From Actinopolyspora halophila DSM 43834 (GTDB lineage Bacteria; Actinomycetota; Actinomycetes; Mycobacteriales; Pseudonocardiaceae), in assembly GCF_000371785.1 (NCBI RefSeq), contig NZ_AQUI01000002.1, forward strand, positions 838,590 through 902,589: 64,000 nt of DNA, given 5' to 3'. Position 1 is the stretch's first letter, and every line of letters starts with the position of its first letter. The notes beneath the pieces were generated by a model, which worked only from the letters and a program-made list of their open reading frames with translations, was not told the DNA's origin and made no database searches. Both the position numbers and the translations under genes were made by a program. Of the stretch, positions 5,951-36,240 are shown piece by piece.

Positions 5951-5982
5951 TTGAAAAACCGCTCAGTTGGTTTATAATATTT
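5951..5982 (+). promoter_or_regulatory. Promoter overlapped by a butyrolactone-receptor (ARE) box
   Basis: The box AAACCGCTCAGTTGGTTTAT lies between a TTGAAA -35 (5951-5956) and a TATAAT -10 (5973-5978) with a 16-base spacer. A bound TetR-type receptor would block RNA polymerase here. The sequence is nearly identical to the box at 33324-33356. The regulated gene starts 97 bases downstream. Confidence 0.7.
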
Positions 5983-6075
5983 TCGCGGGGACGCGGGGGC
6001 ACTCGCTGGGGGGATCCCTTGTTGGGTAAGAACCTGTGACGCCTAAGGAAGATACGGGCAACGTTCGGGGTAACC

Positions 6076-6762
6076 ATGCGCTTACTTGTGGTCGAGGACG
6101 AGGAAACCGTCGCAACTCCCCTGATAACGGGACTGCGCCAACGCGGGCACGAAACAGTCGGAGTGAGTACGGGGAGTCGAGCTCTCCAGACGCACCACGA
6201 GGCCGATCTGGTGCTGCTCGACTTGGAACTGCAGGACATGGACGGTCTGGAGGTCTGCCGCATCATCAGAGCCACCGGGGAGACACCGATCATCGCGTTC
6301 ACCGAGCGCAGCACCGAGTCCGATCGCGTTCTCGGGCTGCAGGCCGGGTCCGACGACTGTCTGGGCAAGCCCTACGGCTTCCGCGAGCTGATCGCGCGTA
6401 TCGAAGCCGTCATGCGCAGGGCGCGCAGGCAGACCGCGGAGGAGGACCTGGTTCGGGGGCCGTTGCACATCAGGCCCGCCGCCAGGGAGGTACGGCTCGA
6501 CGACGTGCTCATCGACACCACTCGCAAGGAGTTCGACCTGCTTCACCGACTCGCACGGGAACCGGGCGTGGTCGTCTCCCGGCAGCAGCTCATGAGTGAG
6601 ATCTGGGGGGATCCGATGCCGCAGACGGCCAGCACGAAGATCAGCAGGACCATAGACACGCACGTGAGTACCCTGCGCAACAAGCTCGGTTCCAGCGAAT
6701 GGATCCGAACCGTACGAGGGGTCGGTTTCTGCCTCGGCTCCGGTGAGGACGTCCGGGTGTAA
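6076..6762 (+). CDS. OmpR/PhoB-type response regulator, likely cluster activator (JadR1/LanI-like role)
   Basis: A 228-residue regulator with an N-terminal receiver (VVEDEE acidic pocket, phospho-acceptor Asp49 in LLDLEL, Thr76, Lys98 in LGKPYG) and a C-terminal winged helix (about residues 125-220, ending TVRGVGFCLG). No histidine kinase is adjacent, so it is an orphan. OmpR-type regulators without kinases sit at the edge of angucycline clusters (JadR1, LanI, Aur1P) and act as pathway activators, some with an altered phosphorylation site; here all classic receiver residues look intact. Its promoter carries a butyrolactone-receptor box, so it is the likely link between the signal system and the polyketide genes. 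Confidence 0.88.
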   Translation: MRLLVVEDEETVATPLITGLRQRGHETVGVSTGSRALQTHHEADLVLLDLELQDMDGLEVCRIIRATGETPIIAFTERSTESDRVLGLQAGSDDCLGKPYGFRELIARIEAVMRRARRQTAEEDLVRGPLHIRPAAREVRLDDVLIDTTRKEFDLLHRLAREPGVVVSRQQLMSEIWGDPMPQTASTKISRTIDTHVSTLRNKLGSSEWIRTVRGVGFCLGSGEDVRV

Positions 6763-6816
6763 GCGAACGTACCGAGAGGCTCGACGATCGAACCATACGA
6801 ACAGGCGAACGGAAGC

Positions 6817-6846
6817 CGTGTCGGGCGGTCATGACCGCCCGACACG
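6817..6846. terminator. Bidirectional terminator hairpin
   Basis: Perfect 14-base arms (6817-6830 and 6833-6846, CGTGTCGGGCGGTC and complement) around a two-base AT loop. It lies between the convergent response regulator and HTH genes and can end both transcripts. Confidence 0.75.
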
Positions 6847-6852
6847 ACCATC

Positions 6853-7698
6853 TCATTCGGACAGCGTCGTGGACTCCCGGCCGCGCAGGGTGGCAGTGAC
6901 GTCGTCCACGTGATAGTAGGTGCGTTTGCCCCGGCTACGGCGACGCCAGGACCTCTCGCTCGCCATCCGGTAGACACTGCCAGCGGAAACGCACCACATC
7001 CGGGCGATCTCGGAGGCGCCGAGCCATACGGGGCGGCGCGTTTCTCCGGGCTCCCCGGAGGCCATGCGCGCGCGCAGCCCCAGCCACTCGGATTCGGACC
7101 AGCGATGTGCTCGTTCCACCGTGCACCGCACGTCCGAACGTCCCCCCGGCTTGTCCGGGCGAACGACGGCCTCCAAAGCCCCTGCGCACCCCTCTTCCGG
7201 GCAAGTACCTACCGGCAGCTTCCGAACCCTTTCGGAGGAAGTCATCCGCCGTGCGCGCCGGGCGAGTTCGGCCGTTTCGGAAGCGAAGTCGTCCACTGCT
7301 TCGTGACCGGCCAGCCAGTCGAGGTGTCGCAGCAGGAACGCGGCCACCGCGGGGACCGTGCGTGCCGGCCGGCTCACCGAACGCTCGTCCACGACCAGCG
7401 AGGCCCAGGAGCACAGCACGTTCGAGATCGCGGAACGAAGCTCGAAGGCCGCGGTGTTGAACGGCATACCGCTTCGGCGGTCGTTGGAGCGGCGCTGCCC
7501 CGTTTCCGCTTGGCCGCTGCCACCGCCGAGTATCCGCTCGCACGCCGCGTACAGCCCCGGTAGGTCACCGAGATCGGATTCGACGCTTTTCCGGCAGGAC
7601 GGGCACAGTCGGCCGGTGTTCGTGGTCCTCCTGCGCCGCTCGCCCGTCTCGTCCCGGTGCAGGCAGTCCTCGCCCACGCACAATGAGTCACGTGTCAT
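6853..7698 (-). CDS. Cys-rich protein with C-terminal helix-turn-helix, function unknown
   Basis: A 281-residue protein. The N-terminus has two cysteine pairs (CVGEDC and CPSC) that could form a zinc ribbon, and a second Cys group lies at CPEEGC. The C-terminal 50 residues (LGASEIARMWCVSAGSVYRMAS, then a basic stretch) look like a MerR/excisionase-type winged helix. Such proteins are common in actinomycetes near mobile or accessory DNA and are annotated as hypothetical. ATG 7698 gives the full Cys motif. A role in regulating the adjacent cluster is possible but not shown. Confidence 0.75.
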   Translation of the reverse strand: MTRDSLCVGEDCLHRDETGERRRRTTNTGRLCPSCRKSVESDLGDLPGLYAACERILGGGSGQAETGQRRSNDRRSGMPFNTAAFELRSAISNVLCSWASLVVDERSVSRPARTVPAVAAFLLRHLDWLAGHEAVDDFASETAELARRARRMTSSERVRKLPVGTCPEEGCAGALEAVVRPDKPGGRSDVRCTVERAHRWSESEWLGLRARMASGEPGETRRPVWLGASEIARMWCVSAGSVYRMASERSWRRRSRGKRTYYHVDDVTATLRGRESTTLSE

Positions 7699-8322: not shown

Positions 8323-9792
8323 ATGGACGCGCCAGTAATAGTGGTGGGAGCTGGTCCGGCGGGGCTCGTGCTCGCCGCGGAGCTGCGCCTGGCGGGAGTG
8401 GACGTAATCGTCGTCGAACGTTTGCACGAACGTACCGGCGAGTCCCGCGGGCTCGGTTTCACGGCTCGGACGATGGAGATTTTCGACCAGCGTGGCCTGC
8501 TTCCCCGGTTCGGCGAGATAGAAACCAGCAACCAGGGCCACTTCGGCGGGATCCCGGTGGACTTCGGCGTGCTCGAAGGGGCTCACCAGGCGGCCAAGAC
8601 CATACCGCAGTCCACCACCGAGGCCGTTCTCGAGGAGTGGGCGCGCGAACTGGGGGTGGACATTCGGCGCGGTCACGAGTTCCAGGAGGTGCGGGACGAC
8701 GCCAACGGTGTGGAGGTCACCGTTCGTTCGTCGGAGGGTGAACACGTGCTGCGGGCTGGGTGGCTCGTCGGGTGTGACGGTGGTCGCAGCGCGGTGCGCA
8801 AATCGGTCGGTTTCGATTTCCCCGGCACCGCGGCGACGATGGAGATGTTCCTCGCCGACATCCGCAACATCGAGCTGGACTCGCGCATGATCGGCCAGAC
8901 CTTGCCCGGTGGCATGGTGATGGTCGGCCAGCTGCCCGGCGATATCACGCGGATCATCGTCTGCGAGCGCGACAATCCTCCGCAGCGGCGCACCGAGAGC
9001 CCGGAGTTCTCCGAGGTGGCCGATGCGTGGAAACGCCTGACCGGAGTCGACATCTCGCACGCCGAGCCCGTGTGGGTCAGTGCCTTCGGGGACGCCACCC
9101 GCCAGGTCACCGAATACCGCCGCGGACGCGTGCTGCTGTCGGGCGACGCCGCGCACATTCACCTGCCCGCGGGCGGGCAGGGCATGAACGCCAGTATCCA
9201 GGACTCGGTGAATCTCGGCTGGAAGCTGGGAGCGGTGATTCGGGGGGAGGCCCCGGAGGCCCTGCTGGACACGTACCACGGCGAGCGCCACGAGGTGGGA
9301 CGTCGCCTGCTCATGAACACCCAGGCGCAGGGGCTGCTCTTCCTCAGCGGTGAGCACATGCAACCCCTGCGCGACGTCTTCTCCGAACTGGTCAGGTACG
9401 AGGAGGTCAGCCGCTACCTCGCGGCCATGGTCAGCGGTTTGGACATCCATTACGACGTCGGTTCCGGCAGTAATCCGCTGCTCGGGTACCGCATGCCGAA
9501 AACGGAACTGGTCAAGGACCAACGCAGGCGGGACAGCACGGAACTGCTGCATCGCGGACGCGGGGTACTGCTCGATCTGGAGGACAATCCCACTCTCCGC
9601 GGACGTGCCGGCCCCTGGACGGATCGGGTCGACGTCGTGACCGCGGAACGCGCGCGGGAGTCCGGGCCGCTCTCCGGAACGGCCGCGGTGCTCGTCCGTC
9701 CCGACGGTTATGTCGCTTGGGCGGCCCCGGGAAGCGACCACGACCTGCCCATGGCTCTGGAGCGGTGGTTCGGCCCCGCCCGGAACGACTAG
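8323..9792 (+). CDS. FAD-dependent aromatic hydroxylase, UrdE/PgaE-like angucycline oxygenase
   Basis: A 489-residue group A flavoprotein monooxygenase, predicted to hydroxylate the tetracyclic angucycline intermediate (C-12 in the PgaE/JadH family) using NADPH, FAD and O2. Motifs: dinucleotide-binding VVGAGPAGLVLAAEL at residues 6-20, DG motif GCDGGRSAVRK near residue 150, GD motif LLSGDAAHIHLPAGGQGMN near 275. Length equals PgaE. It is the first gene of the operon and is followed 26 bases later by the cyclase, matching the E-F-A-B-C order of urdamycin and gaudimycin clusters. GAGGAG precedes the ATG. Confidence 0.93.
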   Translation: MDAPVIVVGAGPAGLVLAAELRLAGVDVIVVERLHERTGESRGLGFTARTMEIFDQRGLLPRFGEIETSNQGHFGGIPVDFGVLEGAHQAAKTIPQSTTEAVLEEWARELGVDIRRGHEFQEVRDDANGVEVTVRSSEGEHVLRAGWLVGCDGGRSAVRKSVGFDFPGTAATMEMFLADIRNIELDSRMIGQTLPGGMVMVGQLPGDITRIIVCERDNPPQRRTESPEFSEVADAWKRLTGVDISHAEPVWVSAFGDATRQVTEYRRGRVLLSGDAAHIHLPAGGQGMNASIQDSVNLGWKLGAVIRGEAPEALLDTYHGERHEVGRRLLMNTQAQGLLFLSGEHMQPLRDVFSELVRYEEVSRYLAAMVSGLDIHYDVGSGSNPLLGYRMPKTELVKDQRRRDSTELLHRGRGVLLDLEDNPTLRGRAGPWTDRVDVVTAERARESGPLSGTAAVLVRPDGYVAWAAPGSDHDLPMALERWFGPARND

Positions 9793-9818
9793 AAGAAACG
9801 AGGATTGGAGAGGAAACC

Positions 9819-10145
9819 GTGCACAGTACGTTGATAGTGGCTCGTATGGAGCCCGAATCCGCCGGGAACGTGGCCGATATTTTCGCTGATTTCGACGATA
9901 CCGAGATGCCGCACAGGATGGGCACCCGCCGTCGTCAGCTGTTCTTCTACAGGGGGCTCTACTTCCATCTTCAGGAATTCGATTCCGATGACGGTGGTGA
10001 GCGCATCGAGGAGGCGAAGACCGATCCGAGGTTCGTTCGGATCAGTGCGGACCTCAAGCCGTACATCACGGCATACGACCCGTCCACCTGGCGTACGCCG
10101 TCGGACGCGATGGCCGAACGCTTCTACCACTGGAGTGCGTTGTGA
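9819..10145 (+). CDS. TcmI-family polyketide cyclase (UrdF/PgaF-like)
   Basis: A 108-residue SRPBCC-unrelated, ferredoxin-like-fold cyclase of the TcmI family, which guides closure of the later rings of the aromatic polyketide. It opens [16 protein letters not shown] and has the family features [19 protein letters not shown] and the C-terminal RFYHW. The GTG at 9819 is chosen because GGAGAGG lies just upstream and it aligns with relatives; the open frame extends further only as an artefact. Its stop overlaps the next start by four bases (GTGA), showing translational coupling to the ketosynthase. Confidence 0.9.
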
Positions 10146-11413
10146 CCGGAAGACAGGTAGCGATCACCGGGGTAGGTGTCACCGCACCTGGTGGAGTGGG
10201 GACGAAGAATTTCTGGAGCCTGCTGTCCGAGGGTCGTACGGCCACGCGACGCATCAGCTTCTTCGATCCGTCCCCGTACCGTTCGCAGGTGGCGGCCGAG
10301 GTCGACTTCGATCCCGAACTGGCCGGACTGTCCCCGCAGGAGATCCGGCGGATGGACCGTGCGGCCCAGCTCGCCGTGGTGACGGCACGCGAGGCCGCGT
10401 CCGATGGCGGGCTGGAACTGGCGGACATCGATCCCACCCGTCTGGGAGTGACCATCGGCAGCGCCGTGGGGGCCACCACGGGGCTGGACTGGGAGTACCG
10501 CACGGTCAGCGACGGTGGTCGCGCGGAACTCGTGGACCACGAGTACGCGGTCCCCCACCTGTACAACTACTTCGTGCCGAGCTCGTTCGCCGCCGAGGTG
10601 GCCAGGAGCGTGGGGGCCGAGGGGCCGAGCTCGGTCGTCTCCACCGGTTGTACCTCGGGGCTCGATTCCGTCGGTTACGCGACCGAGCTCATCAGGGAGG
10701 GCACGGCCGACATGATGATCGCCGGTGCCACGGACGCGCCGATATCACCGATCACCATGTCGTGCTTCGACGCGATCAAGGCGACTACGCCGCGCAACGA
10801 CGATCCCGAGCACGCCTCCCGCCCCTTCGACGGCACGCGCAACGGATTCGTGCTCGGTGAGGGGGCGGCGGTCTTCGTGCTGGAGGACCTGGACAGCGCG
10901 CGGCGGCGCGGGGCGCACATCTACGCCGAGATCGCCGGTTACGCCTCGCGCTGCAACGCGTACCACATGACCGGGTTGCGTTCGGACGGAAGGGAGATGG
11001 CCGAGGCGATTCGGGTTTCCCTCGACGAGGCGAGGCTGCCCGCGGAGAGCGTCGACTACGTGAACGCACACGGCTCGGGAACGAAGCAGAACGACAAGCA
11101 CGAGACCGCCGCGTTCAAACGCAGTCTCGGTGAGCACGCCTACCGGGTGCCGATCAGCTCGATCAAGTCGATGGTCGGTCACTCGCTCGGAGCCATCGGC
11201 TCGATCGAGGTCGCCGCCTCCGCGTTGGCCATGGAGCACGACGTGGTGCCCCCGACCGCGAATCTGCACACGGCCGACACCGAATGCGATCTGGACTACG
11301 TGCCGGTCGAGGCGCGTGAGCAGCGCACCGACGCGGTGCTGTCGGTGGGCAGTGGCTTCGGTGGTTTCCAGAGCGCCGTGGTGCTCGTCGCCCCGGAGAG
11401 GAGTGCCGCATGA
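10142..11413 (+). CDS. Type II PKS ketosynthase alpha subunit (UrdA-like)
   Basis: The 423-residue condensing subunit of the minimal PKS. With the chain-length factor and ACP it builds the poly-beta-ketone from malonyl units. The active-site Cys170 is in [11 protein letters not shown], with His310 in NAHGSGT and His347 in VGHSLGA, completing the Cys-His-His triad. It is coupled to the cyclase upstream (4-base overlap) and to the chain-length factor downstream (ATGA at 11410). All features are intact. Confidence 0.97.
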
Positions 11414-12633
11414 CCGAGGGAAACGGCGAGGTGGTCGTGACCGGCTTGGGTATCGCGGCCCCGACGGGACTGGGGGTGGAGCAGTACTGGTCCGCGACCC
11501 TCGAGGGAACTCGAGCGATCGACCGGATCACCCGTTTCGACCCTTCTCCCTACCCCGCCCGGCTCGCCGGGGAGATCGCGGGGTTCGTGGCCGAGGAGCA
11601 CCTGCCCAGCCGGTTGATACCCCAGACCGACCGGATGACGCAGCTGGCTCTGGTCGGGGCAGACTGCGCCTTCGCGGACGCGGAGGTGCAGCCCGCGGAG
11701 ATGTCCGAGTACGAGATGGGCGTGGTGACCGCGAGCTCCTCCGGGGGGTTCGAATTCGGCCAGAACGAGTTGCGGAACCTGTGGAGCAGCGGGACCCAGT
11801 ACGTGAGCGCTTACCAGTCCTTCGCGTGGTTCTACGCCGTCAACAGCGGACAGATATCCATCCGGAACGGGATGAGGGGCCCCAGCGGTGTTGTGGTCAG
11901 TGACCAGGCCGGAGGGCTCGATGCCCTGGCACAGGGTCGCAGGCAGATCCGCAAGGGCACGCGCCTGATCGTTTCGGGAAGTGTCGACGCATCGCTGTGC
12001 CCGTGGGGATGGACCGCACAGCTGACCAGCGGTCGGTTGAGCACCAGCACCGATCCGGAACGGGCCTACCTGCCCTTCGACGCGGAAGCGTGCGGGCACG
12101 TTCCCGGCGAGGGTGGAGCGCTGCTGATACTCGAGGACCTCGCCGGCGCACGGTCCCGTCGTTCGGCGCATGTCTACGGGTCCATCGCGGGTTACGGTGC
12201 GACGTTCGATCCCGACCCCGCCACGGGGCGTCCGCCGAATCTGCGTGGGGCGGTGGAGGCGGCGATCCGGGACGCGGGCACCACACCGTCGGAGATCGAC
12301 GTCGTGTTCGCCGACGCGGCCGCCGTTCCGGAACTGGACCTCGTCGAGAGCAGGGCCATAACCGAGGTGTTCGGGCCCCGTGGGGTACCGGTGACCGTGC
12401 CCAAGACCACGACCGGGCGGTTGTACTCCGGGGCGGGACCACTGGACGTCGCCACTGCCTGCCTCGCGATACGAGACGGTGTGATTCCGCCGACCCCAGG
12501 GGTCACGCTCGGTCGGGAGCACGCCCTCGATCTGGTGGACAGCCCGCGGGACGAGGGGATTCGACAGGCACTCGTGCTGGCCCGCGGGTACGGGGGATTC
12601 AATTCCGCGGTAATCGTCCGGGCCGTCGACTGA
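11410..12633 (+). CDS. Type II PKS chain-length factor (KSbeta, UrdB-like)
   Basis: The 407-residue partner of KSalpha that sets polyketide length and helps priming by decarboxylation. The nucleophile Cys is replaced by Gln166 (VSDQAGGLD), the hallmark of chain-length factors. The gate region reads [10 protein letters not shown], the form I associate with decaketide systems such as angucyclines rather than the FTHREF of octaketide Act, but residue-level chain-length prediction is uncertain. It starts inside the KSalpha stop codon (ATGA), giving equal expression of the heterodimer. Confidence 0.96.
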
Positions 12634-12683
12634 ATTTTCGGTTCGAAAGCCCGGGAAAATGATAATCCGATGATGGGAGAATA

Positions 12684-12959
12684 ATGTCCGAAAAAGAATT
12701 CACCGTGGAGGACCTGAAAAGGATTCTGCGTGAGGGTGCCGGGGAGGCGAGGGGTGTGAGCCTCGACGGGGACATCCTCGACACCGACTTCGAGGTGCTC
12801 AGCTACGACTCCCTGGCCCTGCTGGAGACCGGGGGCAGGATCGAGCGGGAGTACGGAATCTCCCTCGAGGAAACCTCGATCACCGAGGCGGTGACGCCGC
12901 GGGAGTTCATCGAGATCGTCAACGGCCAGCTGAGCGGGTCGGTCTCTCCGGTCGGTTGA
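12684..12959 (+). CDS. Type II PKS acyl carrier protein (UrdC-like)
   Basis: A 91-residue carrier protein that holds the growing chain on a phosphopantetheine arm. The attachment Ser43 is in YDSLALLE; helix I and helix III (EREYGISLEETSI) fit the family. GGGAG precedes the ATG. It is 50 bases behind the chain-length factor, completing the minimal PKS. Confidence 0.95.
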   Translation: MSEKEFTVEDLKRILREGAGEARGVSLDGDILDTDFEVLSYDSLALLETGGRIEREYGISLEETSITEAVTPREFIEIVNGQLSGSVSPVG

Positions 12960-13179
12960 CGGGTTCTCCGTTCGGGCCAGCCCGAACGCCCGGGCGGATT
13001 TTTCCGCGCCGCCGGATCCGAGGGAGAACCCGACTCCGCCGGCGACTCGACCGGAAGAGTTCGATGAAAAACACCGGTGAGGAACGGGTGACACGCGCCG
13101 CCGTCGCGTCGTGACGGATGCGCGACGGCGGCGTGGAACCAAGGAAATCATTTCGCACTGATTGGTAACGGAGACATTC

Positions 13180-13962
13180 ATGACGGAGCAGGGGCGTACG
13201 GCCATCGTCACCGGGGGAACCAGCGGAATCGGTCTGGAAGTGACCAGGATGCTGGCCGAGCGGGGACACCGTGTGTTCATCGGTGCCCGGACCGAGGACA
13301 AGGTGGCCGTCACGGTCAAGGAATTCCAGGACGCGGGCCTGGAGGTGGAAGGCGCTTCGTGCGACGTGCGTTCCGGCGCCGACATCGAACGTTTCGTCGG
13401 TCAGGCCGTCGACCGTTTCGGCACCGTCGACGTGCTGGTGAACAACGCGGGGCGCTCGGGTGGGGGCGTCACCGCCGACATCGCCGACGACCTCTGGTTC
13501 GACGTCGTCAACACGAACCTGAACAGCGTTTTCCTGATGAGTCGCGAGGTGCTCAACACGGGCGGCATGCGGGAAAAGCAATGGGGGCGGATCGTCAACA
13601 TCGCCTCGACCGCGGGCAAGCAGGGTGTGGTGCTGGGAGCTCCGTACTCCGCTTCCAAGCACGGAGTCGTCGGGCTGACCAAGGCGTTGGGCAACGAGCT
13701 GGCGCCGACCGGCATCACCGTCAACGCGGTGTGCCCCGGCTACGTCGAGACCCCGATGGCGGAGCGCGTTCGTCAGGGATACGCGGCGGCGTACCAGACC
13801 TCCGAGGAACAGGTCCTCGAGAAGTTCCGGGCGAAGATCCCGCTCGGTCGTTACTCGACCCCGCAGGAGGCGGCGGGCCTGGTCGGCTACCTGGTGAGCG
13901 ACACCGCCTCCTCGATCACCTCGCAGGCGCTCAACGTCTGCGGCGGCCTGGGCAACTTCTGA
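13180..13962 (+). CDS. Polyketide C-9 ketoreductase, SDR (ActIII/UrdD-like)
   Basis: A 260-residue short-chain reductase that reduces the C-9 carbonyl of the nascent chain with NADPH. Cofactor motif TGGTSGIG at residues 11-18; catalytic Ser143, Tyr156 and Lys160 in the YSASK block, almost the same numbering as ActIII; C-terminal QALNVCGGLGNF. The ATG at 13180 follows GGAG at good spacing; the TTG at 13162 that extends the frame is unlikely. A 220-base gap to the ACP leaves room for a second promoter. Confidence 0.95.
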   Translation: MTEQGRTAIVTGGTSGIGLEVTRMLAERGHRVFIGARTEDKVAVTVKEFQDAGLEVEGASCDVRSGADIERFVGQAVDRFGTVDVLVNNAGRSGGGVTADIADDLWFDVVNTNLNSVFLMSREVLNTGGMREKQWGRIVNIASTAGKQGVVLGAPYSASKHGVVGLTKALGNELAPTGITVNAVCPGYVETPMAERVRQGYAAAYQTSEEQVLEKFRAKIPLGRYSTPQEAAGLVGYLVSDTASSITSQALNVCGGLGNF

Positions 13963-13982
13963 TCGGTAGCTGAGAGGAAACC

Positions 13983-14921
13983 ATGAGCAAGCATCAAGTC
14001 GAGCACGAGATCACCATCGACGCCCCTGCCGAGGAGATCTACCAACTGCTCGCTGACGTGGAGAACTGGCCGCGGATCTTCCCGCCTTCCGTCTACGTCG
14101 ACCACGTCGAGCGGGGCGAGACCGAAGAACGCATCCGGATCTGGGCCACGGCCAACGGCGAGGCCAAGAGCTGGGTGTCCCGGCGCGTGTTGGATCCGGA
14201 AGGTCTGCGGATCTCCTTCCGGCAGGAGACCCCCGCCAGTCCCGTGGCCGAGATGGGCGGAACCTGGATCATCGAGCAGCTGGAACCACGCACCTCACGG
14301 GTGCGGCTGCTGCACGACTACCGGGCCATCGACGACGACCCCGACAGCACGGACTGGATCGACCGGGCGGTCGACCGCAACAGCCGTTCCGAACTCGCCT
14401 CCCTGAAGAACAACGTCGAGCTCGTCACGGGATCGCGGGACCTGACGCTGTCCTTCACGGACAGCTTGAGGATCCACGGTTCGGCCAAGGACCTGTACGA
14501 CTTCGTCAACGAGGCGCAGCTCTGGCAGGAACGGCTTCCCCACGTCGCTTCCGTGCACCTGCGTGAGGAAACCCCGGGGCTGCAACAGCTGCGCATGGAC
14601 ACCAGGACGCAGGACGGTTCGACGCACACCACGGAGTCGGTGCGTGTCTGCTTCCCGCATCACAGGATCGCCTACAAGCAGACCACTCTTCCCGCGCTGA
14701 TGACCGTGCACACCGGTCGCTGGGAGTTCGAGGAGGGCGACGACGGCGTAACCACCGTCACCTCACAGCACACCGTCGTCATCAACACGGACAACATCCC
14801 GGGGGTCCTCGGCGAGGATGCCGGGACAACCGAGGCGCGAACGTTCATCCGCAACGCGCTGGGCAACAACAGCAGGGCCACGCTCGGCCATGCCAAGGAA
14901 TACGCGGAAGCACGGCGCTGA
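13983..14921 (+). CDS. Didomain polyketide aromatase/cyclase (UrdL-like)
   Basis: A 312-residue protein with two START/Bet v1-like domains (about 1-145 and 150-312), the arrangement used on chains that were reduced at C-9. It closes and aromatises the first ring. The start MSKHQVEHEITIDAPAEEIY and the second-domain SFTDSLRIHGSAKDLYDFV are typical. GAGAGGA precedes the ATG, 20 bases after the ketoreductase. The gene order D-L-M matches angucycline clusters. Confidence 0.94.
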   Translation: MSKHQVEHEITIDAPAEEIYQLLADVENWPRIFPPSVYVDHVERGETEERIRIWATANGEAKSWVSRRVLDPEGLRISFRQETPASPVAEMGGTWIIEQLEPRTSRVRLLHDYRAIDDDPDSTDWIDRAVDRNSRSELASLKNNVELVTGSRDLTLSFTDSLRIHGSAKDLYDFVNEAQLWQERLPHVASVHLREETPGLQQLRMDTRTQDGSTHTTESVRVCFPHHRIAYKQTTLPALMTVHTGRWEFEEGDDGVTTVTSQHTVVINTDNIPGVLGEDAGTTEARTFIRNALGNNSRATLGHAKEYAEARR

Positions 14922-14924
14922 ACC

Positions 14925-26125: not shown

Positions 26126-26323
26126 TCGGAGTTCTCTGTTCGGTTCGCTCGGCGACGCCCGCGGACGCGACGCGGTCGTTCCGGCGCCGCCGACTCGGTG
26201 AGCACCCGCCTCGGCCGTCGATTCGGACGGAGAACCTCCGTGAGCGATTCCCCGGACGCGGAGCGGGGAGAGTGGATTCGATTCCCGGAACCCGGGAATC
26301 CTGTGATGATCGAGGAGGAGAAA

Positions 26324-26647
26324 ATGTTCGGAAAATTGTCCGTGACGATCATAGACTGCGCAGACGTGCAACGGATGACCCGTTTCTACCGGGACCGTCT
26401 CGGTTTGAAGGTGATCGACCAGGGGGAGAACCACACCGTTTTCGACACCGGCAACGAGGGCGAGCTGGTTCTGGAGTCGCACGGTGTGGAACGCCCCGTG
26501 AGCATCGCCTTCACGGATGCGGACATCCCGCGGGCGCACCGGGAACTGACCGATGAGGAGCCCACCGAACTCGCACCGCACAAAGGTGGTCAACGTTTCT
26601 CCGTGCTCGACCCCGAGGGGAACACGATCACGTTCGTCAACGCCTGA
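26324..26647 (+). CDS. VOC/glyoxalase-superfamily protein
   Basis: A 107-residue single VOC domain: MTRFYRDRLGLKV at the first repeat and FSVLDPEGNTITFVNA at the end. The family includes dioxygenases, epimerases and metabolite-binding resistance proteins. GAGGAGG directly precedes ATG 26324, deciding the start. It is 18 bases ahead of the P450 and likely in its operon. Binding of the finished drug (resistance) and a catalytic role are both possible. Confidence 0.82.
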   Translation: MFGKLSVTIIDCADVQRMTRFYRDRLGLKVIDQGENHTVFDTGNEGELVLESHGVERPVSIAFTDADIPRAHRELTDEEPTELAPHKGGQRFSVLDPEGNTITFVNA

Positions 26648-26665
26648 ACTCGGAAAGGCAGCGCG

Positions 26666-27898
26666 ATGAGTACATCAGCACCCCCGGCCCCGCTGTTCGG
26701 TTCGCCCTACTACCAGGACCCCTATCCTACTTTCGCGTGGCTCCGGGAGAACTCCCCGGTGCACGAATTCGAATTTCCCGTCGGTGGAGTTCGCACCTGG
26801 ATCGTGACTCGTTACGACGACGTCCGGGCGTTGCTCGCGGATTCCCGTTTCAGCTCGGAGGGCGGAACCTGGGGAAACACCGAATTCCGGGAAGCGGGCC
26901 TGGTGAGCGGTGCGGGAAGCGTACTGGAGAAGGCCATCACCGTGGTCGACCCCCCCGCGCACACCAGGCTGCGGAAACTGGCGATGAGCGCTTTCACGCC
27001 GCGCAGGATCGAGCAGTGGAGGGAGTCCATCTCCCGGCTGGTGGACGAGACGTTGGAGGAGTGCGCCGCACGTGGCTCGTTCGACGTCATGGACGACTAC
27101 GCGGGGGTGGTTTCCTCCGGTGTCCTCGGGCGGATCCTCGGGTTCCGCATCGAGCGGCACCGGGAGCTGGTCGATGCGCTCACCCAGGCGTTCCCCTCGG
27201 ATCCGAACCTCATGGACCAGGTGGCCGAGGGCTTCTCGCGGATCTGCGAGTACGCGGCCGAGCTCGTGGCGGACAAACGACGCGACCCGGGCGACGATCT
27301 GACCTCGGCACTGGTGCAGGCAGGCGAGGACGGTGATCGGCTCGACGACGAGGAGCTGGTCGCCATGGTCGCCTCGATGATCATGGCGGGTAGCGACACG
27401 GTCCGCGCGTTCGTGGGCAACGCCGCGCTCGCGCTGCTCGACCACCCCGATCAACGTCGTTTGCTGTGCGAGTCACCGGACCACGTCGGCAACGCGGTCG
27501 AGGAGTTGTTGCGCTACGAGGGAGCGCTCAGCACGGCGTTGTTCCGGGTTACCACCGAGGAACTCGAATTCGCCGGAACCACGCTGCCCGCGGGGGCGCC
27601 GGTAATCGCCGCTCTGCTGTCGGCCAACCGTGATCCGGAACGGTTCCACGAACCGGACCGGCTCGACATCACCAGGCAGCGGAGCAGGCACGTCGGGTTC
27701 GGCCACGGTCTGCACAACTGTTTGGGGGCTGCGCTGGCCCGCATGGAGGGTGAGATCGCCATCCCCGCGTTGTTCCGGCGTTTCCCCGAACTCGACACGG
27801 CGATACCGCGTCGGGACGTGCGCTACATCGAGAACTGGGCCATGCGTCGTTTGGTGCGACTGCCCGTCGCGACCTCCGCGAACGACACTCACAGCTAG
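26666..27898 (+). CDS. Cytochrome P450
   Basis: A 410-residue class I bacterial P450. Heme-ligand Cys352 in FGHGLHNCLGAALARM, I-helix MIMAGSDTVRAF (acid-alcohol pair Asp-Thr near 244-245), K-helix EELLRY. It needs a ferredoxin, and one is encoded 16 bases downstream. A regiospecific oxidation of the aromatic polyketide is the likely job. The high Glu/Asp content would fit a halophile. Confidence 0.95.
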   Translation: MSTSAPPAPLFGSPYYQDPYPTFAWLRENSPVHEFEFPVGGVRTWIVTRYDDVRALLADSRFSSEGGTWGNTEFREAGLVSGAGSVLEKAITVVDPPAHTRLRKLAMSAFTPRRIEQWRESISRLVDETLEECAARGSFDVMDDYAGVVSSGVLGRILGFRIERHRELVDALTQAFPSDPNLMDQVAEGFSRICEYAAELVADKRRDPGDDLTSALVQAGEDGDRLDDEELVAMVASMIMAGSDTVRAFVGNAALALLDHPDQRRLLCESPDHVGNAVEELLRYEGALSTALFRVTTEELEFAGTTLPAGAPVIAALLSANRDPERFHEPDRLDITRQRSRHVGFGHGLHNCLGAALARMEGEIAIPALFRRFPELDTAIPRRDVRYIENWAMRRLVRLPVATSANDTHS

Positions 27899-27914
27899 TC
27901 AGGAGAACGAGGGG

Positions 27915-28163
27915 ATGCGCGCCACAGTGCTGGTCGACCGCACGTTGTGCCGTGGTTCGGGGTTGTGCGAGGCGATGGACCCGGAGACGTTCCGCGTCAC
28001 CGATGAAGGCAGTTCCGTGGTGCTGCGACCGCGGGTGGCCGATGAGGGCCACCTCGAGCTCGCCGCGGAAATAGCGGAGTGCTGCCCCGCCGGAGCGATA
28101 ACGGTGCAGGGGCCCGTCGACGGGCCCGCACCACGAAACGAGGAGAACGAGGAGACGTCATGA
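27915..28163 (+). CDS. 3Fe-4S-type ferredoxin, P450 partner
   Basis: An 82-residue ferredoxin. The cluster ligands are in CRGSGLC near the start and CCPAGAI near residue 60, the spacing of P450-associated single-cluster ferredoxins. GAGGGG precedes the ATG. It sits right behind the P450 and its stop overlaps the methyltransferase start (ATGA). Confidence 0.92.
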   Translation: MRATVLVDRTLCRGSGLCEAMDPETFRVTDEGSSVVLRPRVADEGHLELAAEIAECCPAGAITVQGPVDGPAPRNEENEETS

Positions 28164-28930
28164 CCGAGAACGCCGCGGAGCCCGTGCTCGACACCGAGGC
28201 CGTGCTGGGGAGGTTGTGGGAGCGGAACTACGACCCGGCGACCCAGGGGATCATCGAGGACCTGCCGCTGGAACCGCATTGGCGCTGCCTGGACGTGGGA
28301 GCGGGGCTCGGGTCGATGTCCTACTGGATGTCCGAGCGTGCGCACCGTGGCTCGGTGCTCGCGTTGGACGTCGAAACGCACAACATCGACGAACGGCGAG
28401 CACCGAACCTGAGCGTGCGTCGAGCGGACGTGACCGAGGCCGACTTCGAGCCGCGCTCGTTCGACCTCGTGCTCTTCCGGGCGGTCCTTTCGTACCTGAG
28501 TGATCCGGAGGAACTGGTCGCGCGTGCCGCACGCTGGCTCTCCCCGGGTGGGTGGATGGTCGCGGAGGACTTCTACTTCATGCCGAGCGAGGACGGACCG
28601 AGCGCGCTCGGCAGGAAAGTGGTGGACGCTTACACCAAGGGGGCGTCCGAAGGCGGAATGGACATGCGCATGGCGCGCAGGCTTCCCGCGATGTTGTCCG
28701 GGGCCGGGTTGGATTCGGTGGATCTGCGGTTGCGCCCGCTGGGGCCGGGGCAGGGCGCCGAGGAGAACGAGCTGATGCGGCGTCGCATGGAACTGCAGGG
28801 ACAGCCGCTGGTCGACGACGGCCTGTTGACCTCCGAGGAGATCTCCGAGTTCAACGCGATGCTGGAACGGCCGGAAGTACGTGACGTGACGACACTGCAG
28901 TTCTCCGCGTGGGGACAGCGCACTGCATGA
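28160..28930 (+). CDS. SAM-dependent class I methyltransferase
   Basis: A 256-residue methyltransferase: motif I LDVGAGLGSMSYW near residue 45, acidic end of strand 2 ALDVETHN, motif post-I SFDLVLFRAVLSYL. Likely an O- or C-methyl transfer onto the polyketide. Coupled to the ferredoxin by a 4-base overlap, so made with the P450 pair. Confidence 0.88.
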   Translation: MTENAAEPVLDTEAVLGRLWERNYDPATQGIIEDLPLEPHWRCLDVGAGLGSMSYWMSERAHRGSVLALDVETHNIDERRAPNLSVRRADVTEADFEPRSFDLVLFRAVLSYLSDPEELVARAARWLSPGGWMVAEDFYFMPSEDGPSALGRKVVDAYTKGASEGGMDMRMARRLPAMLSGAGLDSVDLRLRPLGPGQGAEENELMRRRMELQGQPLVDDGLLTSEEISEFNAMLERPEVRDVTTLQFSAWGQRTA

Positions 28931-28934
28931 GGTG

Positions 28935-29426
28935 ATGATGAGCTTCCCCGACGAGCGAAACGACGCCAAGCTGCGGGACCTCGTGGATCGGATCGAGATC
29001 TCCGAACTCGTGAGCCGTTACGTCATTCTGCTGGACACTCAGGATGAGAACGGGTTCGACGACTCCTGGCCGGGGTCGATCTTCACCGAGGACATCCGGA
29101 TGGAACTGCCCATCGGAACGTACGAGGGGCTGGACGGGCTGGCGGAGTTCCATTACCGGGCCAAGTCCAAGTTCGCGCGCACTCATCACCTTTCCTCCAA
29201 CCACTCGATCGCCGTCGACGGTGACTCGGCGACCGTGCGGTGCCAGATGATCACCACTCATGTCCATCCGCTTTCCCGGCCGGACAGGAACAGTCGCCGC
29301 GCGTTGTTCCGCATCGGTGGGCACTACGAGGCGGAGGCGGTCCGCACGGACCTGGGATGGCGTTTCCGGCGCTGGGTGTGCCGGGTCACTTGGCACGAGG
29401 GCAGCGGTTCCGTGGAAGTCTACTGA
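28935..29426 (+). CDS. SnoaL/NTF2-like protein
   Basis: A 163-residue cone-shaped NTF2-fold protein. Signs: N-terminal helices with ISELVSRYVILLD, then FTEDIRMELPIGTYEGLDGL and a C-terminal sheet with WRFRRWVCRVTWHEG. The family includes SnoaL-type cyclases and hydroxylases of aromatic polyketide pathways, plus ring-hydroxylating accessory proteins. It begins five bases after the methyltransferase stop; ATG 28935 or 28938 are equivalent choices. Confidence 0.78.
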   Translation: MMSFPDERNDAKLRDLVDRIEISELVSRYVILLDTQDENGFDDSWPGSIFTEDIRMELPIGTYEGLDGLAEFHYRAKSKFARTHHLSSNHSIAVDGDSATVRCQMITTHVHPLSRPDRNSRRALFRIGGHYEAEAVRTDLGWRFRRWVCRVTWHEGSGSVEVY

Positions 29427-29469
29427 AGCGAGGTCGTCCGCTCTCCCCCGTCGTGGGTGATCGTCGATC

Positions 29470-29496
29470 GGAACCTCCCGCGGGCGCTCGCTGCGG
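29470..29496. repeat. Short dispersed repeat, copy 2
   Basis: Matches 1280-1306 with about three differences (GGAACCTCCCGCGGGCGCTC...). It lies in the gap before the carboxylase alpha gene. Confidence 0.4.
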
Positions 29497-29721
29497 ACCC
29501 GCCCCCGGCCGGCGGTCCGCACAAGCTAGGGCGTCCGCGCGGGTGCGGAAACGGGAGCCCCGTGGCGGCGCGAGCGTCTCGGACGGATTCCTCGGCGCCG
29601 CCCGCGCCGAAAGCACCACGCCGGTCGTCAACACGATCGGGAGACATCAGTGAGCTCGGCTCCCCCTCGTATTCGACGTGAGCGTTGTCTGCGTGCACAT
29701 GCGAAGGATGTGATTACCGAA

Positions 29722-31494
29722 ATGCAGAAGGTACTCGTGGCCAACCGCGGGGAGATCGCGGTGCGGCTCGTCCGGGCCTGCGCCGACGCGGGGCTGACCA
29801 GCGTCGCCGTCTACGCCGAACCGGACCGGGACGCGCCGCACGTCCGGCTGGCGGACGAGGCGTTCGCCCTCGGGGGGCAGACCCCCGCCGAGAGTTACCT
29901 GGACATCGGGAGGGTGCTCGAGGCGGCGGACAAGGCCGGAGCGGAAGCCGTGCATCCCGGTTACGGTTTCCTGTCGGAGAATCCGGCCTTCGCCGAGGCG
30001 GTGATCGGAGCGGGGCTGATCTGGATAGGCCCTTCACCTGACGCGATTCGCGCCTTGGGGGACAAGGTTTCCGCCCGGGAAATAGCCCAGCGCGCGGGCG
30101 CGCCGCTGGTTCCGGGCACGGAGCGTCCGGTCGCCGGTGCCGATGAGGTACTCGCCTTTGCCGAGCAGCACGGCCTGCCGCTGGCGATCAAGGCAGCGCA
30201 CGGAGGTGGCGGGCGTGGGCTGAAGGTCGCGCGCACCCTCGAGGAGATCCCCGAGCTGTACGAGTCGGCGGCACGCGAGGCCCTCGCGGCTTTCGGAAGC
30301 GGGGAGTGCTTCGTGGAGAGGTACCTCGATCGGCCGCGTCACGTGGAAACGCAGTGCTTGGCCGACCGACACGGCAATGTGGCCGTGGTGTCCACCAGGG
30401 ACTGCTCGTTGCAGCGGCGGCACCAGAAGCTGGTCGAGGAGGCACCGGCCCCGTTCCTCGCCCCGGAGCAGGAGGCCGAGCTGTCGCGCGCCTCCGAAGC
30501 GATCCTGCGTGAGGCGGGGTACGTGGGTGCGGGCACCTGTGAGTTCCTGATCGGGCAGGACGGGACGATCTCCTTCCTCGAGGTCAATACCCGACTGCAG
30601 GTCGAGCATCCGGTCACCGAGGAGATCACCGGTATCGATCTGGCTCGTGAGATGTTCCGCGTGGCCGCGGGGGAGGAGCTGGGCTGTCCCCCCGAGCCAC
30701 CCTCACGTGGTCACTCCATCGAGTTCCGGATCAACGGTGAGGACGCCGGACGGAACTTCCTGCCCGCTCCGGGGAGGATCACTCGCTTCGATCCTCCGGC
30801 CGGGCCGGGAGTACGACTGGATGCCGGTGTGGAGTCCGGCAGCGTCATAGGCCCCGAATGGGACTCGTTGCTCGCCAAGCTCGTGGTCACCGGTGCCACC
30901 AGGCAACAGGCCCTCCAGCGGGCGATTCGGGCGCTCGCCGACTTCCGGGTGGAGGGGTTGCCCACTGTGCTGCCGTTCCACCGCGCGGTGCTGCGCGATC
31001 CCGCGTTCGCCCCGGAGGTCAACGGATACGAGCAGGCTACGCCTTTCGCCGTGTACACGCGTTGGATCGAGACCGAGTTCCACAACACCGTCGAGCCGCA
31101 CGGCACGGCCGCTGATGCCGATGCCGTCGGTGACGACCGGGAGACGCTGGTGGTCGAGGTGGACGGCAGGCGTGTCGACGTCTCGTTGCCCGCCCCGGTC
31201 GGTGCGGTCGCACCCTCCGCCGGTTCGCGGAAAAAGCCGGAGCGCAAGGCGACGCGTCAGGCCTCGACCACGGTCTCGGACGAGGCCCTGACCGCCCCGA
31301 TGCAGGGAACGGCGGTGAAGATCGCCGTCGAGGAGGGGCAGCACGTGGAAGAGGGCGAGCTCGTGCTCGTGATGGAGGCGATGAAGATGGAGCAGCCCAT
31401 AACCGCTCATCGCGCCGGGGCGGTGGAGGAGCTGGCCGTCGAGGTCGGTGCTTCGATCAGTGCCGGTGTGCCCGTCTGCGCGATTCGGAGCTGA
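29722..31494 (+). CDS. Acyl-CoA carboxylase alpha subunit (biotin carboxylase plus biotin carrier)
   Basis: A 590-residue protein that carboxylates its own biotin with ATP and bicarbonate and passes it to the beta subunit. N-terminal [19 protein letters not shown]-grasp loop [12 protein letters not shown], catalytic [15 protein letters not shown], and biotinyl Lys555 in EAMKMEQP near the end. ATG 29722 aligns with relatives; GTG 29650 and GTG 29710 would add an odd leader. With the beta and epsilon genes 8 kb upstream it forms a full complex, so the cluster brings its own malonyl-CoA supply. Confidence 0.94.
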
Positions 31495-33323: not shown

Positions 33324-33356
33324 TTAACAAAACCGCTTGGTTGGTTTATTATATTG
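33324..33356 (+). promoter_or_regulatory. Promoter overlapped by a butyrolactone-receptor (ARE) box
   Basis: AAACCGCTTGGTTGGTTTAT lies between TTAACA (33324-33329) and TATTAT (33347-33352), spacer 17. It differs from the box at 5951-5982 at only a few positions. It precedes the first TetR gene, indicating auto- or cross-repression. Confidence 0.7.
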
Positions 33357-33383: not shown

Positions 33384-33971
33384 ATGATGTCGAAGAGGCA
33401 GGAACGAGCCGTGCGGACGCGGGAAGTGGTCCTGCGGGCCGCCGCGGAGACGTTCGAGCGGGACGGGGTCAACGCGACGAGTCTGGCCTGGATCTCCGAA
33501 GTGGCCGAGGTTTCGAAGGGAGCGTTGTACTTCCACTTCGATTCGAAGGACGAGCTGGCCGAGGCCGTGTGCGCGGAAGGGCACGGTCGGATGAGCTCCC
33601 TGGTCAGGGACTGTTGCCGGACCGGCGCTCCCGCGCTCGAGAAGTTGGCGAAGCTGTGTCGCGATCTGGTTCGCGCGGTGCGCGGCGATGTGGTGGTTCG
33701 TGCGGCGCTCAGTCTGGTCCGGGAGCGAGGTGTTCCCCGTGCGCTGCACGTGGATCCCTATCGGAACTGGTGCCGGTTGGTGCACCGGCTGCTCTCCCGG
33801 GCCAGGGCGGAGGGAGGTCTGGGTGGAGGTGTCGACGTGGACACCTCCACGGCCCTGCTGGTCTCGGCGGCCATGGGAGTGGAGGTGCTTTCCCGCAGGG
33901 ATCCTTCCTGGCTGGACGAGGAGCTGTTGGGGCGCGTGTGGGAGACGGTGTTCCCCGCGCCGCTGTCGTGA
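33384..33971 (+). CDS. TetR-family gamma-butyrolactone receptor-like regulator 1
   Basis: A 195-residue repressor. The HTH region KRQERAVRTREVVLRAAAETF...VSKGALYFHFDSKDELA is that of the ArpA/ScbR/BarA receptors. Trp129 (PYRNWCRL) sits close to the ligand-pocket Trp of ArpA, although other parts are divergent; it might be a pseudo-receptor that binds other ligands, such as the end product. It carries a receptor box on its own promoter. Confidence 0.85.
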   Translation: MMSKRQERAVRTREVVLRAAAETFERDGVNATSLAWISEVAEVSKGALYFHFDSKDELAEAVCAEGHGRMSSLVRDCCRTGAPALEKLAKLCRDLVRAVRGDVVVRAALSLVRERGVPRALHVDPYRNWCRLVHRLLSRARAEGGLGGGVDVDTSTALLVSAAMGVEVLSRRDPSWLDEELLGRVWETVFPAPLS

Positions 33972-34140: not shown

Positions 34141-34166
34141 TCGAACCGTCCGGTTGGGTTTTTAAT
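34141..34166 (+). promoter_or_regulatory. Butyrolactone-receptor (ARE) box before the second receptor
   Basis: GAACCGTCCGGTTGGGTTTT shows AACCG-N7-GG with the T-rich right flank that ends in a TTTAAT -10-like sequence (34161-34166). It lies about 80 bases before the TTG start of receptor 2. Confidence 0.55.
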
Positions 34167-34244: not shown

Positions 34245-34871
34245 TTGGTCAAGCAGGAGCGTGCGGCACGAACCCGAGCCTCCGTGTTGCGTGCGGGAGC
34301 CGAGGTCATCGCCGCGCGTGGTTACGAGGGCGCGACCATCGCCGAGATACTCGAGCACGCGGGTGTCACCAAGGGCGCGATGTACTTCCACTTCCCCTCC
34401 AAGCAGGCCCTCGCGCAGGCGGTGATCGAGGAACAGACAAATGTCCGGGTCGAACAGGGTGGTGTCTCGCGCCTGCAGGACGCCGTCGACTTCTCGCACA
34501 AGGTCGGTGTGGCCCTGCGGGACGACCCCCTGTTCCAGGCGGGCACCCGGATCGCGGTGGAGACCGGCTTCGGGCAGGACCCCATGGTGCCCTACCAGGA
34601 CTGGAGTGAGCTGTTCCGCGGCGTTTTCAGCGAGGCGCAGCACGCCGGTGAGCTGTTGCCGACGATCGATCCCGGTGAGACCGCGGAGCTGTTCGTCGCC
34701 TCCTACCTCGGTACGCAGCTGTTCTCCCAGGCGTCCACCAACCGTGCGGACATTTCCGGGTGGGTGGCGAGGCTGTGGCAACATCTGTTGCCCGGCATGG
34801 CCGCTCCCGGTGTGCTCGCACGGATCGATCCGCACGGCAGGGCCGTGTCGGCCTCGGTGGAGGCGGTCTGA
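34245..34871 (+). CDS. Gamma-butyrolactone receptor, ArpA/ScbR family (receptor 2)
   Basis: A 208-residue TetR-type repressor that releases DNA on binding a gamma-butyrolactone. VKQERAARTRASVL and ILEHAGVTKGAMYFHFPSKQ are the classic DNA-binding part; Trp120 (PYQDWSELF) matches the ligand-binding Trp119 of ArpA; the C-terminus ELLPTIDPGETAELFVASYLG is typical. TTG 34245 with GGAGGAG just before it reproduces the usual MxKQERA start; ATG 34188 would add 19 unrelated residues. A receptor box lies upstream. It is more canonical than receptor 1. Confidence 0.9.
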   Translation: MVKQERAARTRASVLRAGAEVIAARGYEGATIAEILEHAGVTKGAMYFHFPSKQALAQAVIEEQTNVRVEQGGVSRLQDAVDFSHKVGVALRDDPLFQAGTRIAVETGFGQDPMVPYQDWSELFRGVFSEAQHAGELLPTIDPGETAELFVASYLGTQLFSQASTNRADISGWVARLWQHLLPGMAAPGVLARIDPHGRAVSASVEAV

Positions 34872-35026
34872 AACGGGATCCCGCGCGGCCCGGTTCGCTC
34901 GGCGGCCCGGTCGAGGGACCACGGGGTGGACCCGGCGGGGATGGTGGCGTGTCCCCCGGGACGGCGGGCCTGCGGTGGCCCCGCGGCCCGGCCGGAACCG
35001 TGGTCCGGCGGCCCGGGAGTCCGTCG

Positions 35027-36055
35027 TCAGAGGTCCACGAGGACCGTTCCGGTGTGTCGTCCTTCCGCCAGCTCGCACAGGGCGCCGGGGGCGCGGTCCA
35101 ACCCGTGCAGCCGCGTGTGCGGGAAGATCAGGGTTCCGTCACGTAGTCCGGTGCCGAACCGGTGGTTCCACTCCTCCTCGGCGTCGGGGTGGTCGACCAG
35201 CGAGAAGCCGTGCACGGTGATCCTTCGTGTGATCAGCACGGAGGAGTCCAGTTCCACGGGGGAACTGAGCCCGTCACCGCCCAGCTGACCGGACAGGGCG
35301 CCGACCAGGACCACCCGAGCGCCGCTTCGAGCCGTGGTGATCGCGGCACGCAGCTGCTCGCCGCCGACGGTGTCGAAGACGACGTCCACACCCTCCGGAG
35401 CGGCTCGCCGCAGCTGTTGTTCGAAATTCCCGGCCGAGCGGGACACGACACCGTCGTGACCCAGTTTTTCGCGCAGGTACCGCCCTTTGCCGTCGGAACC
35501 GGTGCTGCCGATGACGCGGCCGGCTCCGAGCAGACGGGCGATCTGCCCGGCCATGCTCCCCACTCCCCCGGCGGCTCCCGTCACGAACACGGTCTCACCG
35601 GGACGGATTCCCACGGTGCGCGTGAGCGCGGCCCAGGCGGTGGCTCCCCGGGACAGGAACGTGGCCGGTTCGGGCAGCACGTTCGGGTCGAGCCACCGCG
35701 CTCGGGCGGTGTCCACCACCGCGTACTCGCGCCAGCCGTGGGAGTGGCGCACGAGGTCGCCGACTGCGAGGTCGGTATCGGCCGGGGCGATGACGACTTC
35801 CCCGATCGCGGGGCCCCACAGCGGTTCTCCCGGAACGTAGGTGGACACGGGCAGTTCCGTGGTGGTCGCCCTCGTGCGCATCGCGGTGGAAACGGCCATT
35901 GTCCGGTTGCGCACCAGCACCTGGTCCGGCCCCGGTTCGGGGACGGGCGATTCGGTCAGGTCGAAGTGCTCGGTGGTGAGTGTTCCCTCCGCGTGCGCCA
36001 CGAGCCGGATCTCGTTGTGGGTGGCGGGCGGGGCGGAGCTTTGAAGGCTGTTCAC
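35027..36055 (-). CDS. MDR-superfamily NADP-dependent oxidoreductase (alkenal/enone reductase type)
   Basis: A 342-residue zinc-free medium-chain reductase. Cofactor motif VFVTGAAGGVGSMAGQIARLLGA; no structural-zinc Cys cluster; DTVGGEQLRAAI follows. These enzymes reduce C=C bonds conjugated to carbonyls. Placed head-to-head with the AfsA-type gene, it may reduce the butenolide intermediate of gamma-butyrolactone synthesis, the step done by BprA beside afsA in Streptomyces griseus; this is inferred. The GTG start at 36055 is approximate because no clear ribosome site is seen. Confidence 0.8.
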   Translation of the reverse strand: MNSLQSSAPPATHNEIRLVAHAEGTLTTEHFDLTESPVPEPGPDQVLVRNRTMAVSTAMRTRATTTELPVSTYVPGEPLWGPAIGEVVIAPADTDLAVGDLVRHSHGWREYAVVDTARARWLDPNVLPEPATFLSRGATAWAALTRTVGIRPGETVFVTGAAGGVGSMAGQIARLLGAGRVIGSTGSDGKGRYLREKLGHDGVVSRSAGNFEQQLRRAAPEGVDVVFDTVGGEQLRAAITTARSGARVVLVGALSGQLGGDGLSSPVELDSSVLITRRITVHGFSLVDHPDAEEEWNHRFGTGLRDGTLIFPHTRLHGLDRAPGALCELAEGRHTGTVLVDL

Positions 36056-36168
36056 GTGGGCAGGAAACCATGGGGGAAACGGCCGGGGGACCGCCGTCCG
36101 GAGGCGGAGTCCGACTGCTCCGACCGCAGGAACGTGGGTGAAAACTCGGTTTCGGAAGCGCCTGCCCC

Positions 36169-36198
36169 TTGAAAAACCGGTCAACCGGTCTTTATCTT
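36169..36198. promoter_or_regulatory. Promoter overlapped by a butyrolactone-receptor (ARE) box, distal afsA site
   Basis: AAACCGGTCAACCGGTCTTT lies between TTGAAA (36169-36174) and TTATCT (36192-36197), spacer 17. Its centre contains the palindrome ACCGGTCAACCGGT. It can serve the synthase gene and, from the other side, the reductase. Confidence 0.65.
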
Positions 36199-36210
36199 CA
36201 TGTCGCCAGC

Positions 36211-36240
36211 TTAAAAAACCGCGCGGTAGGTATCTTAGTT
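36211..36240. promoter_or_regulatory. Butyrolactone-receptor (ARE) box, proximal afsA site
   Basis: AAAACCGCGCGGTAGGTATC again shows AACCG-N7-GGT, 30 bases before the GTG of the synthase and 42 bases (four helical turns) from the distal box, an arrangement suited to cooperative repression. Confidence 0.6.

Follow-up and report, generated by a model that had tools for sequence, protein, structure and literature searches.

Are the short repeated boxes that precede regulatory genes around a polyketide cluster of Actinopolyspora halophila DSM 43834 the operators of a γ-butyrolactone (GBL) quorum-sensing circuit? The question is raised by a 64,000-nucleotide stretch of the 5.35 Mb genome (G000:C2:838590-902589, hereafter the window), in which a sequence-only reading had proposed five boxes with the fixed pattern AACCG-N7-GGT as targets of a butyrolactone receptor. 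All five (B1 to B5) were found in place, upstream of an OmpR-type regulator gene, two TetR genes (TetR1 and TetR2) and an afsA-type gene. Their proposed role as receptor targets is supported by the match to the published autoregulatory element (ARE) consensus, by family scores above the NCBIfam cut-offs, and by matrix matches that follow AfsA across the genus. With a probability of about 0.85, the boxes would be ARE operators of a GBL circuit, four of them typical and B3 diverged. They are present, conserved and specific on the scale of the genome, and the parts of the circuit fall into identified gene families.

Boxes, predicted promoters and the genes they precede

The boxes and the genes of the putative circuit are as follows.

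B1, 5951..5982 (core 5956-5973), + strand: upstream of the OmpR-type gene, between TTGAAA and TATAAT, 16-base spacer, promoter scan 11/12
B2, 33324..33356 (core 33330-33347), + strand: upstream of TetR1, between TTAACA and TATTAT, 17-base spacer, promoter scan 10/12
B3, 34141..34166 (core 34143-34160), + strand: diverged ARE-like element upstream of TetR2
B4, 36169..36198 (core 36174-36191), + strand: in the divergent reductase/afsA intergenic region, between TTGAAA and TATCTT, 18-base spacer, promoter scan 9/12
B5, 36211..36240 (core 36216-36233), + strand: the box nearest afsA
OmpR/PhoB-type response regulator gene, 6076..6762, + strand: Response_reg PF00072 and Trans_reg_C PF00486
TetR1, ScbR-family, 33384..33971, + strand: basic isoelectric point (pI) of 8.35; NF041196, 167.1 bits (cut-off 150)
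TetR2, ScbR-family, 34245..34871, + strand: acidic pI of 5.36; NF041196, 204.6 bits (cut-off 150)
Medium-chain reductase of the ADH_N_2 type, 35027..36055, - strand: PF16884 and PF00107; divergent from afsA
afsA/scbA-type butyrolactone synthase gene, 36270..37235, + strand: NF041195 (ScbA/BarX), 313.8 bits (cut-off 200); PF03756

The shared pattern is exact in B1, B2, B4 and B5, but B3 reads AACCG-N7-GGG; likewise, the A-rich left flank attributed to the boxes is present in four of them and gives way to ATATCG in B3. B1 and B2, described as nearly identical despite lying 27 kb apart, have the same base at 16 of the 18 positions of the core over a distance of 27.4 kb. The claim that three boxes lie between -35 and -10 elements separated by 16-17 bases stood for the placement but not for the spacing, with B1, B2 and B4 having spacers of 16, 17 and 18 bases; these overlapping pairs are predictions of a consensus scan. 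The same scan called no -35/-10 pair around B3 or B5.

We used 38 gene models whose start codons were trimmed by eye to starts common to relatives. None of the five boxes lies inside any of these trimmed models, while some are crossed by untrimmed open frames. The start of TetR2, taken from the alignment with relatives, is a TTG after GGAGG, and its score of 204.6 bits was obtained on a longer frame from 34188. The afsA-type gene is linked to the receptor, starting 1.4 kb past the end of TetR2. In the OmpR-type regulator, both the receiver and the C-terminal DNA-binding domain were found. Codon 3 of its gene is a TTA leucine codon, a possible bldA-type control point.

Match to the ARE consensus and specificity in the genome

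The pattern AACCG-N7-GGT corresponds to the inner part of the dyad-symmetric ARE consensus AAACVGNNBVNNCSGTTT, which was derived from ten protected regions in Streptomyces filipinensis (PMC7480387). B1, B2 and B4 depart from this footprinted consensus by one mismatch, B5 by two and B3 by three, such that four of the five operators fit it with at most two mismatches. At one mismatch the window contains eight strand-wise matches, six of which are B1, B2 and B4 on both strands and two of which are a single intragenic place at 22402. In shuffled windows, the strand-wise means were 0.85 at one mismatch, 9.9 at two and 102 at three, and B3 therefore gains nothing from this test. As a genome-wide scan at up to two mismatches, the consensus was useless (577 forward and 579 reverse matches against 188 and 201 for the control).

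The bare AACCG-N7-GGT turned out to be too loose: it occurs seven times in the window against a shuffle mean of 2.89, with 4 of 100 shuffles reaching seven, and, extended by a further T, 57 times in the genome against six for the pattern read backwards. It is too frequent to be diagnostic and is little proof on its own. The fuller operator, however, was significant. The exact pattern AAACCR-N7-GGTNT, taken from relatives' boxes, matches 18 separate sites genome-wide, of which four are boxes and 14 lie outside the window; 0.17 would be expected in 64 kb against the four boxes observed (Poisson P about 3e-5, hand arithmetic). Counted by strand, its occurrences number 18-23 in each of the eight genomes whose AfsA passes the cut-off, compared with 9 and 12 in the two that have no such AfsA. 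The diagnostic operator is the 18-base dyad AAACCG-N6-NGGTTT rather than the bare pattern.

For a scan of the genome, a sequence-only matrix was trained on 16 boxes drawn from other genomes in the genus, with the window's own boxes excluded, and the results refer to the candidates that received a full score (150 of the 1572 that passed a first look in the window's genome and 150 of 1174-1669 per genome in the relatives). B5 (17.9 bits), B1 (17.5), B2 (16.3) and B4 (16.2) took ranks 1 to 4 in the genome. The two matches that follow are the reverse-strand readings of B1 and B2, after which the score drops sharply to 10.4 bits at the fifth site. Matches (E up to 1) were found in all eight genomes of the genus that have an AfsA over the cut-off and, among scored candidates, in neither of the two that do not (G150 and G188).

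Conservation of the cassette and its elements in the genus

The closest named relatives by TetR2 scan are Actinopolyspora species with 72-74% identity (L071-L075). The cassette TetR1-TetR2-reductase-afsA is present in six other genomes of the genus, and a seventh, putatively A. mortivallis, has it without TetR1. Identity to the window's proteins is 46-51% for TetR1, 72-75% for TetR2, 54-57% for the reductase and 52-57% for AfsA. Elements matching B2 to B5 stand at corresponding places in these seven relatives: all six that have TetR1 in the cassette carry a B2 counterpart before it with one or two mismatches, and the seventh carries a box with two mismatches 255 bases before TetR2. In the reductase/afsA intergenic region, CTTGAAAAACCG...ACCGGTC (B4) and AAACCGC.CGGTAGGTATCTT (B5) are kept in all eight aligned sequences, while much of the DNA outside these elements drifts. 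The TetR2 promoter keeps ACCG[CT]CCGGTTGG[AG]TT in all eight aligned promoters, and B3 is thus a conserved element, though a diverged one.

Outside the genus, the operator proved recognisable in part only, and it was rejected as an operator common to the whole family. Across the DNA between receptor gene and afsA at 19 loci from other genera (4 of 23 loci had a different gene order and were excluded), the best fit to the ARE consensus was at most two mismatches in nine, three in eight and five in two, with controls that varied widely. The matrix found matches in 7 of the 23 loci, in five of which one lies before the receptor or afsA.

A TetR1 copy with 63% identity and its own box stands apart from the afsA cassette of its genome (L190 1-20000), adjoining genes related to the window's right flank (38369-48184). 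In four relatives, a box-like match just after afsA was considered as a further target. This was rejected for the one copy of the four that was read in detail, that of A. mzabensis (L073 13030-13075), which forms the stem of a long hairpin between convergent genes and is probably a terminator.

The OmpR-type gene and the polyketide cluster

A type II polyketide cluster separates the OmpR-type regulator gene from TetR1; its products include FAD oxygenases, and its gene set is presumably angucycline-type.

Type II polyketide cluster, 8323..31494, + strand
Cyclases, at 9717 and 13983
Ketosynthase alpha (KS-alpha), at 10142
Ketosynthase beta (KS-beta), at 11410
Acyl carrier protein (ACP), at 12684
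Ketoreductase, at 13162
FAD-oxygenase/short-chain reductase fusion, at 14925
Carboxylase parts, at 19456 and 29650

The cluster is presumed to be the target of the OmpR-type regulator. Scanning of the window revealed no box of comparable score in the polyketide operons, where the best matrix match inside the cluster reaches 5.9 bits, so that control of the polyketide genes would pass via the OmpR-type activator.

The box before the activator gene recurs with the cluster in A. mzabensis. There, a homologous polyketide cluster on contig C6 (L186, G117:C6:402000-421999), with six proteins 75-86% identical and a transporter at 69%, includes an OmpR-type gene (66%) that has a box 92 bases upstream; this box scores 17.8 bits, was outside the training set and has a second box beside it. 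The receptor cassette of this genome is on contig C9. Even with cluster and receptor cassette on different contigs, the regulator's box has remained beside the polyketide genes. A second OmpR-type gene of A. mzabensis (68%) has two boxes, both in the training set, and in A. xinjiangensis and G177 boxes stand before a more distant OmpR-type gene adjoining another receptor pair.

Elsewhere in the window, a 795-residue protein encoded at 44733-47120 has no Pfam match at E 1e-5 and a 69% identical counterpart in G097. At C1:1919079-1919096 (L188), G097 also has an 18-base core identical to that of B1, placed where a predicted transposase-like gene (DDE_5) begins.

Probable receptor and pseudo-receptor

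TetR2 orthologues are acidic in all eight cassettes (pI 4.79-5.36), and TetR1 orthologues are neutral to basic in all seven cassettes that have one (pI 7.25-9.44). Acidic to neutral receptors and basic pseudo-receptors are the usual split, with known exceptions (PMC7480387). We also built a tree of 53 proteins from 32 loci, dropping matches shorter than 400 bases and proteins shorter than 150 residues; it held no characterised pseudo-receptor. With the root at the midpoint, a dividing branch with support of 99/95 placed TetR2 with the afsA-linked receptors and AvaR1, and TetR1 with second-copy receptors. The ligand-pocket tryptophan of TetR2 aligns with that of AvaR1, and the tryptophan of TetR1, located by eye, lies in PYRNW. 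TetR2 is likely, though not proven, to be the GBL receptor and TetR1 the pseudo-receptor. A third ScbR-family protein of the genome (G000:C2:4982036-4982596; L003, L059) scores 151.8 bits, just above the cut-off, and has a pI of about 10.3.

Proposed circuit and alternative explanations

From this arrangement we infer how the boxes would be bound and released, which way control would run, and what the signal and the product would be chemically. Without signal, dimers of TetR2, and partly of TetR1, would occupy the boxes within the promoters of afsA, tetR1, tetR2 and the gene of the OmpR-type regulator, the presumed activator of the polyketide cluster, and would keep polymerase out. Once butyrolactone from the AfsA-type synthase had built up, TetR2 would be released and the synthase boosted; TetR1 would then be made and damp the response, and the activator would turn the polyketide genes on. 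Repression relieved by butyrolactone is the simplest reading by analogy with JadR2, JadR3 and JadR1 and with SabR1 (PMC6930871).

Several observations weigh against this reading. B3 fails the matrix (6.6 bits); its copies in relatives have about four mismatches to the ARE consensus in the B3 register (hand count), and the consensus scan found counterparts in four relatives, there in shifted registers only, gave none in G038 and G177, and had none among the matches listed for G097. Given the poor fit of these copies in the B3 register, the assignment of B3 as an ARE is less secure. The intragenic place at 22402 fits the consensus with one mismatch. The genome scan scored 150 of its 1572 candidates, and the training set includes orthologues of B2, B4 and B5, which leaves B1 as the one fully independent match. 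The OmpR-type homologue of A. alba (G134), whose frame is reported with one stop inside (L063 / L187 9114-9839), has a degenerate box only, with three mismatches. Two AfsA loci, the second of G177 and that of G002, from another genus, have no box with fewer than three mismatches before their afsA and receptor genes. In five relatives, the matrix also matches ten places that belong neither to the cassettes nor to OmpR-type genes or the 3' end of afsA; near some of them are genes for transposase-like, ATP-grasp, transporter, TetR and HPr proteins and an MmyB-like regulator, and some of these stray matches may be true targets and others chance. With respect to the two receptors, pI fails to separate the halves of the tree: acidic values (5.4-6.7) prevail among the other second-copy proteins, and a few members of the first clade are basic (up to 10.3). 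The third ScbR-family protein could also bind.

How the circuit would be divided between its two receptors can be read in another way, in which the boxes are still operators. TetR1 would be the main repressor of the OmpR-type gene and, like JadR2, would answer to the polyketide product or an intermediate; TetR2 and butyrolactone would govern the afsA and tetR promoters only, with the likeness of B1 and B2 marking them as common targets of TetR1. The agreement of these two boxes at all but two core positions favours such a division, as does the repression of jadR1 by JadR2, which is sensitive to jadomycin (PMC6930871). However, the receptor and pseudo-receptor of S. filipinensis bind the same sites (PMC7480387), and box likeness therefore need not sort TetR1 from TetR2; we regard this division of labour as possible though somewhat unlikely. 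Far less credible is the notion that the boxes are mainly strong promoter sequence in which AACCG...GGT is chance or a feature of the sigma factor. Three boxes do overlap good -35/-10 pairs and the bare pattern is common, but conservation in the alignments extends to the dyad between the hexamers, and the two genomes without a full AfsA have no matrix matches among the candidates scored. It is also very improbable that the real binder is the third ScbR-family protein (G000:C2:4982036) or an unrelated TetR protein: the former passes the family cut-off, if narrowly, but it sits on a long branch with its strongly basic pI, no matrix match among the scored candidates of the genome scan lies near it, and the matrix matches follow AfsA across the genus.

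Within the GBL-operator reading, the reductase divergent from afsA is the most unusual part: it is present in all eight cassettes of the genus, and no tblastn match to it (E 1e-8) was found within ~1.5 kb either side of afsA at 23 loci of other genera. The enzyme could serve butenolide reduction in butyrolactone biosynthesis. A more speculative and rather doubtful extension is that Actinopolyspora has a GBL circuit of its own, in which a medium-chain enone reductase switched by tandem operators replaces the usual butenolide reductase and the polyketide cluster joins the genus-wide circuit via the box of the OmpR-type gene, even far from the receptors. If so, the signal would differ structurally from Streptomyces butyrolactones.

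The locus offers a compact candidate GBL regulon with operators that are specific genome-wide and named exactly. If the proposed circuit is correct, it points to the repressor genes whose removal would increase expression of the polyketide cluster.

Comparison with known systems

By analogy, the OmpR-type regulator, as presumed activator of the polyketide cluster, would take the place that JadR1 has in Streptomyces venezuelae. An atypical response regulator is one whose receiver is without the residues needed for phosphorylation. JadR1 is called atypical, whereas the regulator here keeps E7/D8, D49, T76 and K98 of a normal receiver (by eye); with these residues present, it is not classed as atypical, only placed where JadR1 stands. 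The jadomycin network (JadR1, JadR2, JadR3 and JadW1) combines an OmpR-type activator, a receptor and a pseudo-receptor of this TetR group and an AfsA homologue, the same parts as proposed here, and its activator gene is repressed by the pseudo-receptor, which resembles the present proposal (PMC6930871, PMC5735094). More precisely, JadR2 directly represses jadR1 and JadR3 is the receptor (PMC6930871). The Actinopolyspora cassette differs from this network by including the divergent medium-chain reductase and by its host.

In S. ansochromogenes, the receptor of the SabR1/SabR2/SabA system represses its own gene together with those of the synthase and the pseudo-receptor, a pattern likened to the circuit proposed here, although the path there runs via CprC and AdpA (PMC6930871). 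In S. filipinensis, the antibiotic promoters have no ARE and control by SfbR and SfbR2 is indirect (PMC7480387), whereas here a box stands before the presumed activator gene. The best solved relative of TetR2 is the avenolide receptor AvaR1 (PDB 6wp7; 155 bits), from the same half of the tree, but the enzymes that make avenolide are Aco and Cyp17, not one of the AfsA type (PMC6930871). Among the titles and abstracts listed, we found no account of a GBL circuit in Actinopolyspora. Circuits of this kind are already known from Streptomyces, and the Actinopolyspora case is a new and well conserved example.

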